This document shows positions 9,987 through 57,367 of a stretch of 57,566 nucleotides of DNA, in pieces (position 1 is the first letter of the stretch; each line of letters begins with the position of its first letter). The DNA is from Clostridia bacterium. Lineage in GTDB: Bacteria; Bacillota; DAOUPZ01. The notes beneath the pieces were generated by a model that saw only the letters and a list, made by a program, of their open reading frames with translations, was not told the origin of the DNA and made no database searches. A program made the translations under genes and the position numbers. Location of the stretch: positions 1-57,566 of the forward strand of contig DAOUPZ010000024.1 in assembly GCA_030625885.1 (NCBI GenBank), given 5' to 3'.

Positions 9987-10937
9987 ATGATAAAGTATTC
10001 ATCTGCTTACACGGATTTAGCCGTTGAAGCGCATCAAATGATTTCTGAAGAAAGAGGGAAAGAACTACCGGGCGTATCTGTGGAAACCGAAGAACATTCA
10101 TATGATTTTGTAACACGGGTAAAAGTTACCACAGAAGAAGGCGCAAAGTTAATCGGCAAATCAATTGGAAACTATATTACCATCGATGCGCCAAAATTAA
10201 GAAATCATGATCGAATCATTGATAAAGAAATCGGAAAAACAGTCGCTAGAGAACTGACCAGCATGAACCATCTACATGAGGATGCAACCATTTTAGTCGT
10301 TGGATTAGGAAACTGGAATGCTACCCCCGATGCTCTGGGACCACGTGTAGTTGATCAGGTATTGGTAACGAGACATCTCCATAACTATGCACCAGAACTC
10401 AAAGGGGGCACACGACCTTTATGTACTATTGCACCCGGCGTTTTGGGTATTACGGGCATCGAAACAGGGGAAATCATCAAAGGTATTGTGGATAAAATCA
10501 AACCCAATTTGGTAATTGCAGTTGATGCTTTAGCTGCTTCCAGTATTGAACGAATTGGTACAACGATTCAAATGGCAGATAGCGGAATTAGTCCTGGCTC
10601 AGGTGTCGGTAATAAGCGTATGGGAATTAATGAAAAAAGTATTGGTGTTCCTGTCATTGCTATTGGTGTACCGACCGTTGTTCATGCAGCTACGATTGCC
10701 TTTAATACACTTAACGCCATTATAGAATCTTCCAGTGAAACACACCGGGAAGAAATAAAAAAAGATGCCGATAAAATCTATGAAAAAGCAATTCCCAAAG
10801 ATGATGGCAGTTTGTTTGTTACGCCAAAGGATATTGATGTATTGATTAAGGATATATCGAGAATAATTGCTGGTAGTATCAATACAGCCTATCAGCCAGA
10901 TGTAGATCTAAAAGATATGATGACTTACCTTAATTAG
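9987..10937 (+). CDS. gpr: Germination protease GPR (SASP-specific aspartic endopeptidase)
   Basis: 316 residues. Contains the family core VGLGNWNATPDALGPRVVDQVLVTRHL and DALAASSIERIGTTIQ..GISPGSGVGNKR. GPR is made as an inactive zymogen in the forespore, self-processes, and cleaves alpha/beta SASPs at the Glu-|-(Ile/Val)-Ala site at germination. Start ATG has AAGGGGG at 8-nt spacing. A CATAATA box at about 9921 resembles a sigma-G -10, but no matching -35 is seen. The three SASP genes just downstream (11004-12025, opposite strand) carry the expected YE(I/V)A(Q/S)E cleavage motif, so enzyme and substrates are adjacent. Confidence 0.97.
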   Translation: MIKYSSAYTDLAVEAHQMISEERGKELPGVSVETEEHSYDFVTRVKVTTEEGAKLIGKSIGNYITIDAPKLRNHDRIIDKEIGKTVARELTSMNHLHEDATILVVGLGNWNATPDALGPRVVDQVLVTRHLHNYAPELKGGTRPLCTIAPGVLGITGIETGEIIKGIVDKIKPNLVIAVDALAASSIERIGTTIQMADSGISPGSGVGNKRMGINEKSIGVPVIAIGVPTVVHAATIAFNTLNAIIESSSETHREEIKKDADKIYEKAIPKDDGSLFVTPKDIDVLIKDISRIIAGSINTAYQPDVDLKDMMTYLN

Positions 10938-10964
10938 GCTTATGAAAGAAAATAATAAGTCAAA
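10936..10964. repeat. 29-bp direct repeat, copy 1
   Basis: AGGCTTATGAAAGAAAATAA followed by TAAGTCAAA; matches 27 of 29 bases with 11193-11221 in the same orientation. It overlaps the last base pairs of the gpr stop codon. The two copies bracket the gpr terminator and the 55-residue SASP gene. Confidence 0.85.
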
Positions 10965-10991
10965 TTGGAATATGCATTATTAACGAAATAA

Positions 10992-11027
10992 GAAAACAGC
11001 CTGCTAAAGGCTGTTTTCCCCTTTTTC
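10992..11027 (+). terminator. Terminator of gpr, embedded in the 3' end of the opposing SASP gene
   Basis: 9-bp stem AAAACAGCC / GGCTGTTTT with a 7-nt loop followed by CCCCTTTTTC. The loop contains the reverse-complement stop codon of the minus-strand SASP gene at 11004, so one stem arm is also coding sequence on the other strand. Confidence 0.75.
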
Positions 11028-11171
11028 AATCATCTTTCTGACGATCATTCCTGCTTCTCTGGCAGAAAGACTTTCCCAACCACCTGATTTGATTTTATCT
11101 GAAAGCCCTAATTCTTGTGCAATTTCATAACGAAATTTTTCGCTAGTTAATCTTTTTCTATTATTTGTCAT
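11004..11171 (-). CDS. Divergent alpha/beta-type small acid-soluble spore protein, 55 aa
   Basis: 55 residues from the ATG at 11171. It shares KFRYEIAQELGL (GPR-site segment) and REAG...RKMIEKGENSL with the two neighbouring SASPs, but the segment AGMIVRKMI replaces the usual AGSIGGxMVKRMI, so the paired glycines of the second DNA-binding helix-turn are missing. Alpha/beta SASPs coat forespore DNA and protect it from UV and hydrolysis. The weak GGGGGG ribosome site is unusual. It is flanked by 29-bp direct repeats, and its 3' end doubles as part of the gpr terminator. A degenerating or specialised paralogue. Confidence 0.85.
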   Translation of the reverse strand: MTNNRKRLTSEKFRYEIAQELGLSDKIKSGGWESLSAREAGMIVRKMIEKGENSL

Positions 11172-11192
11172 TAAAAATCCCCCCTTTTTTTA

Positions 11193-11221
11193 AGGCATAT
11201 GAAAGAAAATAATAAGCCAAA
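11193..11221. repeat. 29-bp direct repeat, copy 2
   Basis: AGGCATATGAAAGAAAATAA followed by TAAGCCAAA; 27 of 29 identical to 10936-10964. It sits 22 bp upstream of the divergent SASP start. Confidence 0.85.
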
Positions 11222-11345
11222 GATACGAGGTGCTAACTTGTTATTTTTTCGAATGTGCCTAAATCATATTATCAACTAATTATTTGTTTTTATGCTGGAA
11301 TGATCTATTAAAAAGACCATACGTAAGTTATCATGGAAAATATAA

Positions 11346-11379
11346 TAAACGGGTAAAAAGAATATTTTCACCCGTTTAT
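11346..11379 (-). terminator. Probable terminator of the 63-aa SASP gene
   Basis: Stem AAACGGGT / ACCCGTTT (extendable by A-T pairs) with a ~15-nt loop; the following minus-strand sequence TATTATATTTT is only moderately T-rich. Confidence 0.5.
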
Positions 11380-11400
11380 ACGCAAAATATGAATATAGAA

Positions 11401-11592
11401 CTAAAGATTGTTTTCAGCTCTTTCAATCATCTTTTTAACCATAGCACCGCCGATGGAACCTGCTTCTTTAGTAGTTAAAGTTTCAGGATTATCTAATTTA
11501 GCGCCTAAGCCTAATTCTTGAGCAACTTCATATTTAAATTGATTAAGGGCTTGTTTTTTTCCTGGAACAACTGCTTTGTTAGTATTTGTCAT
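11401..11592 (-). CDS. Alpha/beta-type small acid-soluble spore protein
   Basis: 63 residues ending in the SASP pattern NQFKYEVAQELGL...TTKEAGSIGGAMVKKMIERAENNL. The YEVAQE segment corresponds to the GPR cleavage site, and GSIGGxMVKKMI to the conserved DNA-binding helix. Ribosome site AAGGAGGTGAAATT. A sigma-G-like promoter lies at 11625-11653. Expressed in the forespore by family precedent. Confidence 0.95.
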   Translation of the reverse strand: MTNTNKAVVPGKKQALNQFKYEVAQELGLGAKLDNPETLTTKEAGSIGGAMVKKMIERAENNL

Positions 11593-11624
11593 GGAATTTC
11601 ACCTCCTTATTACTCTGTTGATAA

Positions 11625-11653
11625 TAGTATTACCCGCTGTTTTTTATGTATAC
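11625..11653 (-). promoter_or_regulatory. Candidate sigma-G promoter of the 63-aa SASP gene
   Basis: GTATA (11649-11653), 17-nt spacer, AATACTA (11625-11631) on the minus strand, close to the sigma-G pattern GHATR-N17/18-CATNHTA (one -10 mismatch). Start of transcription would be ~25 nt before the ATG. Confidence 0.5.
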
Positions 11654-11753
11654 TAGAAATTTATTCCGTTTCCGTCATGATTGTGAAACAACCCCCCTCT
11701 TCTCTTATTCATTTTTTTATAAAACACCTTTGCATGTAATGACGTTTTCACCA

Positions 11754-11786
11754 AAAAAAGCAGGCGATGTCCTCGCCTGCTTTTTT
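11754..11786 (-). terminator. Terminator of the 65-aa SASP gene
   Basis: 8-bp GC-rich stem GCAGGCGA / TCGCCTGC with 5-nt loop, flanked by A6 and T6, so it can act in both directions. Lies 42 nt after the SASP stop. Confidence 0.85.
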
Positions 11787-11827
11787 CATCTATTCAAACT
11801 CGCGCATGAAAATGACGTTTCTTTATA

Positions 11828-12025
11828 TTAAAGATTATTTTCAGATCTTTCAATCATTCTTTTAACCATAAGACCACCAATGGAGCCAGCTTCTTTTGTA
11901 GTTAAGCTATCCCAACCCTGGCTGTCAATTTTTGCAGATAAACCTAGTTCTGAAGCAATTTCATATTTGAATTGTTCCAAAGCAGCTTTTGCTTGAGGAT
12001 TTGCTAAACGATTTCCACGTGCCAT
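11828..12025 (-). CDS. Alpha/beta-type small acid-soluble spore protein
   Basis: 65 residues: EQFKYEIASELGL with a canonical GPR site (YEIASE), then LTTKEAGSIGGLMVKRMIERSENNL, the closest to consensus of the three. Ribosome site AAAGGAGGTGAGA. Upstream there is a sigma-G-like CATACTA -10 (12057-12063) with a GTATA at 15-nt spacing, shorter than usual; a 7-bp palindrome (ATACTAG-TC-CTAGTAT, 12047-12062) overlaps the expected start of transcription. Confidence 0.96.
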   Translation of the reverse strand: MARGNRLANPQAKAALEQFKYEIASELGLSAKIDSQGWDSLTTKEAGSIGGLMVKRMIERSENNL

Positions 12026-22001: not shown

Positions 22002-22049
22002 TCGGGGACATTCCACGAAGTACGAATGGTGTGTCCCCATGTTGCAAGA
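22002..22049 (+). repeat. REP-like palindromic element, copy 1
   Basis: 48-bp imperfect palindrome beginning TCGGGGACATTCC and ending GGTGTGTCCCC followed by ATGTTGCAAGA. It differs from the inverted copy at 23738-23785 at only 3 positions. Lies 28 nt after the kdd stop and could also act as its transcript end. Confidence 0.85.
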
Positions 22050-22111
22050 GCATTTCTAAATGTAAAATCATTATTGAAAAGCATATAGCTGTTTAATATA
22101 AGGAGCACAAT

Positions 22112-23715: not shown

Positions 23716-23737
23716 AAATTTTAGCATTTAAGGTTGT

Positions 23738-23785
23738 TCTTGCAACATGGGGACACACCACTCGTACCTCATGGAATGTCCCCGA
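23738..23785 (-). repeat. REP-like palindromic element, copy 2 (inverted)
   Basis: Reverse complement of 22002-22049 with 3 differences in 48. Together the copies form terminal inverted repeats about 1.7 kb apart. Confidence 0.85.
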
Positions 23786-39117: not shown

Positions 39118-39175
39118 TTGGCAGGTAGCAACTAGCAGGTATCTTTCCCCCTACCTGCTAACTGCTACCTGCCAA
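39118..39175. repeat. Heptad-armed inverted repeat, copy D
   Basis: Two 24-nt arms with 2 mismatches and a ~10-nt pyrimidine loop; left arm CAGGTAG/CAACTAG/CAGGTA, right arm CTACCTG/CTAACTG/CTACCTG. Begins 4 nt beyond the rng stop, so it could end that transcript, though no T-tract follows on the minus strand. Confidence 0.75.
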
Positions 39176-46751: not shown

Positions 46752-47015
46752 TTACAAACTTCTCTTAACCTGAACAATAGGGATGTTTGCGACTAACGCG
46801 ACAGAATCATCTACATTACTTAAGTTAACCTCTAAAGCTTCCTGATCAACTTCTAAATATTTATTAATAACTGTAATTAAGTCTTCTTTTAATGATTGAA
46901 GTAGTTCCGGTGACATATTAGCACGATCATGAATTAAAACCAGACGCAATCTTTCTTTAGCAACATCTTTACTATTGGTATCTTTTTGAAAAAGCTTAGA
47001 AAATATATCTAACAT
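46752..47015 (-). CDS. minE: Cell division topological specificity factor MinE
   Basis: 87 residues: membrane-targeting start MLDIFSKLFQKD, MinD-contact segment AKERLRLVLIHDRANMSPEL, dimer domain VINKYLEVDQEALEVNL. Stimulates MinD ATPase to create pole-to-pole oscillation. Its presence means an E. coli-type Min system rather than the DivIVA/MinJ type. 22 nt after minD. Confidence 0.97.
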   Translation of the reverse strand: MLDIFSKLFQKDTNSKDVAKERLRLVLIHDRANMSPELLQSLKEDLITVINKYLEVDQEALEVNLSNVDDSVALVANIPIVQVKRSL

Positions 47016-47037: not shown

Positions 47038-47835
47038 TTAACTTCCCAGGCCAATCAATTTTTTCAGTTTTCCAAAAAAAGTTGTTTCTGCCTCCATTGG
47101 CATGAGGGGTACATCCTCACCTAAAATACGTCTAACAATATTCTTATAAGATTTACTAGATAATGATATTTCATCTAATATTGCAGGTTCCCCTCGATTT
47201 GTGGAAATAACAATCTTCTCATCATCAGGAACCACCCCTAATAATTCAATGGCTAAAATATCAATCATATCATTGATGTTCATCATATCTTTTTGAGCTA
47301 CTAAATTAAGCTTTATACGGTTAACAACCAGTTTAGGATTACGTATTTCAGCTGCTTCTAATAATCCGATAATTCGGTCTGCATCGCGAACAGCAGAAAC
47401 TTCTGGCGTGGTCACAATAACAGCCCAATCAGCGCCACTAATAGCATTCTTAAAACCTTGCTCAATTCCCGCTGGACAGTCAATCAAAATATAATCAAAA
47501 TCCTTTTTTAATTCTACACACAATTTCTTCATCTGATCCGGTGAAACAGCATCTTTATCTCGCGTTTGTGCAGCAGGAAGTAAATATAAATTATCAAAAC
47601 GCTTGTCCTTAATTAAAGCTTGTCGCAAACGACAATTTTCTTCCACTACATCCACCAAATCATAAACAATCCTATTTTCCAATCCCATTACTAGATCAAG
47701 GTTTCTAAGTCCAATATCCGCATCTATTAATACAACTTTTTTTCCATTAATCGCTAATCCTGTACCCAAATTAGCAGTTGTTGTCGTTTTGCCAACACCA
47801 CCTTTTCCGGATGTTATAACAATAACTTCTCCCAT
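47038..47835 (-). CDS. minD: Septum site-determining ATPase MinD
   Basis: 265 residues. Deviant Walker A GKGGVGKTTTTANLG, Walker B YILIDCPAGIEQGF, and C-terminal amphipathic membrane-targeting helix FFGKLKKLIGLG. Recruits MinC to the membrane to block FtsZ rings away from mid-cell. Good AGGAGG before the ATG. A 161-bp palindromic element separates it from minC. Confidence 0.98.
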   Translation of the reverse strand: MGEVIVITSGKGGVGKTTTTANLGTGLAINGKKVVLIDADIGLRNLDLVMGLENRIVYDLVDVVEENCRLRQALIKDKRFDNLYLLPAAQTRDKDAVSPDQMKKLCVELKKDFDYILIDCPAGIEQGFKNAISGADWAVIVTTPEVSAVRDADRIIGLLEAAEIRNPKLVVNRIKLNLVAQKDMMNINDMIDILAIELLGVVPDDEKIVISTNRGEPAILDEISLSSKSYKNIVRRILGEDVPLMPMEAETTFFGKLKKLIGLGS

Positions 47836-47866
47836 TCAATCGCCTCCTATCGTCATAAGAACATTC

Positions 47867-48027
47867 AGGCATCTCCAAAAAAAATAACTAGCCAGTATGA
47901 CAGCCTATTTTGAACTATACTGCGTTATCAGAACCTACTGATAGCTCTGCTATCAGCAGAACCTAATGCCTTGTCTATCTCAAAATATTTCTACCATCCT
48001 TGACTCGTTATTTCCTTTGCGATGCCT
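47867..48027. repeat. MITE-like 161-bp palindromic element between minC and minD
   Basis: Ends AGGCATCTCC...AAATAAC and, inverted, GTTATTTCC...GATGCCT: imperfect terminal inverted repeats of ~20 bp. Inner halves remain complementary (TATTTTGA / TCAAAATA; TTATCAGAACCT / AGAACCTAATG) down to a perfect CTGATAGC-TCT-GCTATCAG hairpin at 47938-47956. The whole element can fold as one long hairpin. Its right end contains the minC stop codon (48026-48028). Confidence 0.75.
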
Positions 48028-48751
48028 AACTCCCATAACTATCTCGATTTGGTATATATTTTTCAATCATAATGGTTCCATCTTTAACACGTGCAATTTC
48101 AGGCTCTACAATCTGTTGCATTTCCCCATCCGGTGCTCGAGTAATATACTGTGCAATACGTAATTGCATAGGCTTAAGATAAAAGGCAGTTACAACTGCA
48201 TTATCATTTCCCTTAGCGCCGGCATGCGCGATCCCCCGCAAGGTACCCATAACAATAATATCTCCCCCTGCAATAATTTCAGACCCCGGATTCACATCAC
48301 CTAAAATAATAACATTTCCATCAAACTCTACTCGCTGTCCGGAACGTATCGTTCGTTTTATCAGTAATGCATTTGCTCCATTTTGAATATAATGATTATT
48401 ATTCATATCTTTTTTCCCTGTTATATTATCTTTCTTAAGTTTATTTTTAGACTCTTTTTCCCATAAATCATGTGAAGCAGGGCAATATTTCCATTGCCAC
48501 TCCCTTCCTTCTACTCTAATAAGTTCTAAGTGATAACGTTCAACAATAATTTCCTTAATATTATCTAATTCTGTTTTGTCTAAATCGCGATCACCTACGT
48601 CGAAAATAACCTGTGCTCCATTGAAAAAATACTGAGCCTCACCAATTGCTTTGTCAATTTCTTCATAAATTTGAGATAAAGGATAAGATTCATTAACAAT
48701 AATCCAAATTCCTTCTTTAGTTCCTTTAAATACAATGTTTTTTTCCTTCAT
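48026..48751 (-). CDS. minC: Septum site-determining protein MinC
   Basis: 241 residues from the ATG at 48751 (AAGGGGAG upstream). N-terminal FtsZ-inhibiting domain (~1-100), linker, C-terminal beta-helix MinD-binding domain with GDVNPGSEIIAGGDIIVMGT LRGIAHAG. Inhibits FtsZ polymerisation. The stop codon lies in the terminal repeat of the palindromic element at 47867-48027. Confidence 0.96.
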   Translation of the reverse strand: MKEKNIVFKGTKEGIWIIVNESYPLSQIYEEIDKAIGEAQYFFNGAQVIFDVGDRDLDKTELDNIKEIIVERYHLELIRVEGREWQWKYCPASHDLWEKESKNKLKKDNITGKKDMNNNHYIQNGANALLIKRTIRSGQRVEFDGNVIILGDVNPGSEIIAGGDIIVMGTLRGIAHAGAKGNDNAVVTAFYLKPMQLRIAQYITRAPDGEMQQIVEPEIARVKDGTIMIEKYIPNRDSYGS

Positions 48752-48837
48752 GTCTCTCCCCTTCACCATTGGGAATATAATTATCTATTCAATTATTGAA
48801 ATATTCTTCATAAATATCCTAATTCCTGCCTTAAATG

Positions 48838-57185: not shown

Positions 57186-57367
57186 ACAGCAGGTAGCACG
57201 TTCGCTTCACTCACTGTAGCAGGTAGCAGGTAGGTCTTAACTTGATATTTTTCTGCTTATTTCAGTAAAGTTTTTTACTAAATTTCAATTCACAACCAAC
57301 ACTTACTGAAAATCATCAATCTTTCTAGTAATACCCTACCTGCTACCTGCTGTTCGCTACCTGTCTG
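57186..57367. repeat. Heptad-armed inverted repeat, copy E (long form)
   Basis: Left arm CAGGTAG/CAGGTAG/G at 57217-57234 preceded by another CAGGTAG at 57189; right arm CTACCTG/CTACCTG/CTGTTCG/CTACCTG at 57336-57363. The ~100-nt middle carries a nested stem TTTCAGTAA / TTACTGAAA. The 57064-57427 gap holds only this element and a terminator. Confidence 0.7.

Follow-up and report, generated by a model that had tools for sequence, protein, structure and literature searches.

An old insertion, probably of a non-autonomous MITE-type element, between minC and minD of a Clostridia bacterium

The window analysed here is the whole 57,566-nt stretch of contig DAOUPZ010000024.1 from a Clostridia bacterium (assembly GCA_030625885.1). 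It carries minC, minD and minE on the minus strand, in an arrangement that suggests cotranscription of minC and minD. The gap between these two genes is 190 nt long and contains a near-palindrome of 159 bp, GGCATC...GATGCC, at window positions 47868–48026. The locus is organized as follows.

46752–47015, minus strand: minE, the next gene of the operon (MinE by Pfam)
47038–47835, minus strand: minD, encoding a MinD-type ATPase by Pfam, with its own AGGAGG at 47843–47848, outside the element
47865–47867, plus strand: target-site copy on the minD side, TCA on the plus strand (TGA on the minus), with one mismatch to the other copy
47868–48026, minus strand: the 159-bp element, GGC...GCC, a MITE copy of a diverged subfamily, predicted to be transcribed on the minus strand as minC–minD intercistronic RNA
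47868–47893, plus strand: left terminal inverted repeat, GGCATCTCCAAAAAAAATAACTAGCC
47938–47956, no strand: central perfect hairpin, CTGATAGC-TCT-GCTATCAG
48002–48026, minus strand: right terminal inverted repeat, read from its end as GGCATCGCAAAGGAAATAACGAGTC
48027–48029, plus strand: target-site copy on the minC side, TAA on the plus strand (TTA on the minus), giving the TA of the minC stop TAG
48026–48769, minus strand: minC (MinC_N and MinC_C by Pfam), with its stop TAG at 48026–48028 split between target-site copy and element

A preliminary description had reported a MITE-like palindrome of 161 bp between minC and minD, at 47867–48027. The palindrome is indeed there, although those limits take in one flanking base too many on each side. 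Its perfect core hairpin was correctly recognized and occupies the exact centre of the element. The terminal inverted repeats, given as about 20 bp, are likewise present but imperfect, with 13 of the first 20 positions matching in an ungapped comparison.

The 3′ end of minC reads GGG AGT TAG GCATCG on the minus strand. The TA of the stop codon (48027–48028) belongs to the duplicated TTA and the G (48026) is the last base of the element, in agreement with the earlier claim that the end of the element supplies or overlaps this codon. Removal in silico of the element together with one 3-bp copy yields GGG AGT TAA TGTTCTTATGACGATAGGAGGCGATTGA ATG, a reconstructed ancestral junction in which minC stops with TAA, the spacer measures 28 nt and the AGGAGG of minD is intact. 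Among Sporomusaceae relatives located through MinD (L027, L028, L030, L031, L034, L036, L048, L049 and L097), the minC–minD spacer measures −1 to 52 nt and the element is absent. In some Clostridia that are more distant, the spacers are longer and unrelated. A literature search returned no relevant paper on a MITE at minC/minD.

A BLAST search of the element against its own genome (3.1 Mb, 39 contigs), the check suggested at the outset, matched many dispersed copies. Extending the search with other members, followed by curation by script, gave about 33 two-ended copies, together with solitary and degenerate ends. The ends are of the GGCAYAT.../...RTGCC type in 33 curated copies, with 9–17 of the first 20 positions matching ungapped, and have the sequence GGCAYATTCAAAAAAATAACAAG... 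and its imperfect inverse. Three forms are present: a long form of 126–159 bp, a short form of 55–80 bp, several members of which are about 67 bp and consist of the two ends joined with the middle lost, and an amplified form of 216 bp (L008) with repeats of the central hairpin unit. In this last copy (L008:1381–1596) the unit of about 29 bp stands in tandem, and one strand folds with −96 kcal/mol. All lengths (55–216 bp) are too short to hold a transposase gene and fall below the 500 bp used as the upper size of MITEs.

Two further members of the family occur in the window.

10934–10966, plus strand: solitary family end, TTAGGCTTATGAAAGAAAATAATAAGTCAAA, on the other side of a small gene at about 11000–11172
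11194–11259, plus strand: second family copy, short (66 bp), with TAA on either side on the plus strand

Both have the same direction, and the small gene between them is on the minus strand. This gene is one of three similar repeats at 11004–11977 and resembles, by eye, a small acid-soluble spore protein gene.

The two 3-bp flanks are identical in 24 of the 34 curated places, and every identical pair is either TTA or TAA; a single copy combines the two triplets, one flank being TTA and the other TAA. Because both triplets occur and the two sides agree, this is a true 3-bp target-site duplication rather than sequence shared by the ends. At minC, read on the minus strand, the flanks are TTA (minC side) and TGA (minD side), a mismatch of one substitution that is consistent with age. 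The nearest copy to the minC element (L002) is 78% identical to it, most other full-length copies are about 88–95% identical to the L004 copy, and two 80-bp copies (L005 and L006) have end variants in common with the minC element. Its decayed duplication and its identity of only 78% to L002 show that the minC copy is old; it belongs to a diverged, probably older subfamily.

The copies are dispersed, mostly intergenic and adjoin unrelated genes; the 32 that could be placed lie in 22 tandem, 7 divergent and 3 convergent spacers. In the tandem spacers their orientation relative to the flanking genes is 12 versus 10, and there is no strand bias. A stop codon is hit by 10 of the 32 copies, where TWA targeting of the same spacers predicts 8.4 (p = 0.25). 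The expected number was obtained by listing the TWA sites of each reconstructed spacer and counting how many of them overlap a stop codon; gene ends were taken by a simple longest-ORF rule, so that individual stop-codon cases may err. The stop-codon position of the minC copy is therefore not special, being at chance level for a TWA-targeting element; it follows from TWA targeting in short spacers and from GG ends that preserve TAA and TAG. Insertion into pre-existing hairpins was also considered and rejected, as there is no clear excess over other nearby TWA sites; with the element removed, the minC site can itself fold into a small stem.

We consider it highly probable that the minC–minD segment is a passive, old insertion of one copy of a non-autonomous, MITE-type transposon family. 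The assignment to MITEs follows from the copies with the same ends, the 3-bp TTA/TAA duplications, the length variants, the lack of room for a transposase and the absence from the sampled relatives. The original label 'MITE-like' thus holds, through the many copies, terminal inverted repeats, target-site duplications and absence from relatives; the element is neither single-copy nor an ordinary spacer in all relatives, whose own spacers are short. The length variants arose by internal deletion or amplification. The minC copy would have inserted at the 3′ end of the gene, into AG[TTA]A, changing the ancestral stop from TAA to TAG and lengthening the spacer from 28 to 190 nt. Nearly every copy starts with GG, so that a TAA target is kept as it is and a TTA that overlaps a TAA stop turns into TAG; with this start, the protein is the same before and after insertion at a stop codon. 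The consequence is likely to be passive, with the MinC protein unaltered and minD keeping its own ribosome-binding site. The shared mRNA would gain a long hairpin, which would break any translational coupling of minC and minD, might slow 3′-to-5′ decay of minC mRNA, or might be a substrate of RNase III. Such effects on the mRNA are probably tolerated rather than selected.

Folding throughout the length of the element, as described earlier, is confirmed on both strands. The 161 bases 47867–48027 fold with −42 kcal/mol on the plus strand (z = −6.1), the strand read in the preliminary description; the strand relevant to the RNA is the minus strand, which is more stable (−64 kcal/mol, z = −8.4). 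In neither case did any shuffled sequence come near. In most long copies (L001, L003, L004, L008, L009 and others) the same strand is the more stable one, with mismatches that are G-U there and not A-C. This asymmetry looks inherited rather than selected, given the balanced direction of the genes around the copies.

The stability of the mRNA-strand fold is one argument for co-option, in which the folded intercistronic RNA would set the MinC:MinD ratio through processing by RNase III or otherwise, by stabilizing the minC portion of the mRNA or by uncoupling the translation of minD. The insertion is old with its fold still kept, it expanded to 190 nt a spacer that the Sporomusaceae relatives keep short, and there are precedents in the Correia/NEMIS and ERIC elements (PMC10969869, PMC2229807). 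That the old minC copy still folds strongly might be a sign that the fold was retained to some degree. However, the family occurs in either orientation and in all three kinds of spacer (tandem, divergent and convergent), its location on stop codons is at chance level, and several other diverged copies (L002, L149, L151 and L153) fold weakly, with z of about −1.2 to −3.7. Compensatory changes affect only 3 of the 25 consensus pairs in an alignment of 17 long copies, which is little covariation. No promoter- or terminator-like signal was listed inside the element. The balance of orientations, the scarce compensatory changes and the lack of such signals agree with a selfish element that is left to drift once inserted. 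Co-option is thus improbable in our assessment, and we likewise doubt its specific form, a MITE copy kept in a spacer that was ancestrally short as a functional intercistronic hairpin setting the MinC:MinD ratio, for example by RNase III cleavage. The preliminary description had suggested that the folded segment alters minC/minD stoichiometry or serves as an RNase target; such an effect is possible but, beyond its plausibility, unsupported by these results.

A passive MITE insertion implies a transposase that once moved the family ends. Searches of the draft genome with PF01609, PF13359, PF13340, PF00665, PF13586 and PF13751 gave no match, and no long element with matching ends, which could be the autonomous partner, was found in it. 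The solitary ends on contigs C6, C37 and C15 adjoin ordinary genes and no transposase, and the neighbours of a copy truncated at the end of contig C39 are ordinary genes as well. MITEs can be orphaned, a parent insertion sequence being usual but not strictly required; the absent parent therefore lowers confidence in the transposase class only, for which the 3-bp TWA duplication is then the one line of evidence. This duplication points to a DDE transposase of the IS5/PIF-Harbinger type, which may since have been lost or may not have been assembled.

The genome contains two Y1_Tnp (Y1-type transposase) genes, and the repeats are palindromic and extragenic, as would be expected if the family were REPIN-like and owed its spread to a REP-associated tyrosine transposase (RAYT) and not to a DDE enzyme. 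Y1 transposition makes no target-site duplication, however, and such duplications flank 24 of the 34 copies; the precise GGC...GCC ends also lack the REP doublet architecture. A RAYT/REPIN origin is very unlikely and was rejected on account of the duplications. That the segment is instead a structured RNA under conservation, or just a long spacer of the ordinary kind, as the strong fold and the operon position might suggest, is practically excluded by the many dispersed copies beside unrelated genes, the flanking duplications, the absence from relatives and the lack of any match to an Rfam covariance model up to E = 1.

Two other repeats were observed in the window. The segments 22002–22067 and 23720–23785 are 66-nt inverted repeats, 85% complementary and 1.65 kb apart; the palindrome GGGGACATTCCACGAAGTACGAATGGTGTGTCCCC that they contain resembles repeats near Y1-type (RAYT) transposase genes. 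A second palindromic repeat consists of inverted arrays of a TAGCAGG-type 7-bp unit at 39118–39175 and 57217–57352, with 6 matches against 0.06 expected.

The closest parallels to the MITE family among known systems are as follows. The Chunjie MITE of Geobacter uraniireducens (cited in PMC10969869) also exists in tens of copies of differing size, with direct repeats and numerous partial copies, and one copy lies inside an operon, according to the title of its paper without disturbing the operon structure; at 178–235 bp and in an unrelated host it differs from the present family, a comparison made by description only. Correia/NEMIS elements of Neisseria resemble it in their size (100–200 bp), terminal inverted repeats, stable transcript hairpin and intergenic position, but are listed with 5′-TA-3′ as termini and target-site duplication, in place of the 3-bp TTA/TAA duplication seen here, and they undergo processing by RNase III and, in one form, carry an IHF site (PMC2229807); cleavage of Correia elements by RNase III has been reported (PMC10969869). 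RUP of Streptococcus pneumoniae is a similar intergenic MITE of about 107 bp with many copies, but has a TA target and an IS630-type partner, whereas here the target is a 3-bp TWA and no partner was found (PMC2229807). PIF/Harbinger transposons and their MITEs share the 3-bp TWA duplication and AT-rich targets but are eukaryotic; their transposases are related to the bacterial IS5 ones, and the IS5 target is given as ANT (PMC4482050). REPIN/RAYT systems share extragenic palindromes and folded transcripts, but lack a target duplication and have another end architecture.

No relatives of the family were detected in 398 genomes of the phylum, which are related to the host at phylum level only. 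Viral contigs gave no match to the exact end patterns, and phages and plasmids gave chance-level matches of 31–37 bp only. The family is new, in that it is not found in the collections searched, and of a well-known kind.

The element at minC introduces a MITE family whose TTA/TAA duplication is clean, from a lineage close to the Sporomusaceae that has been little sampled. A regulatory meaning of stop-codon positions needs a calculation of chance first. The family also provides a rule for elements that end on stop codons: TWA targeting and GG ends keep TAA and TAG stops, which is why such insertions would survive in tight operons.
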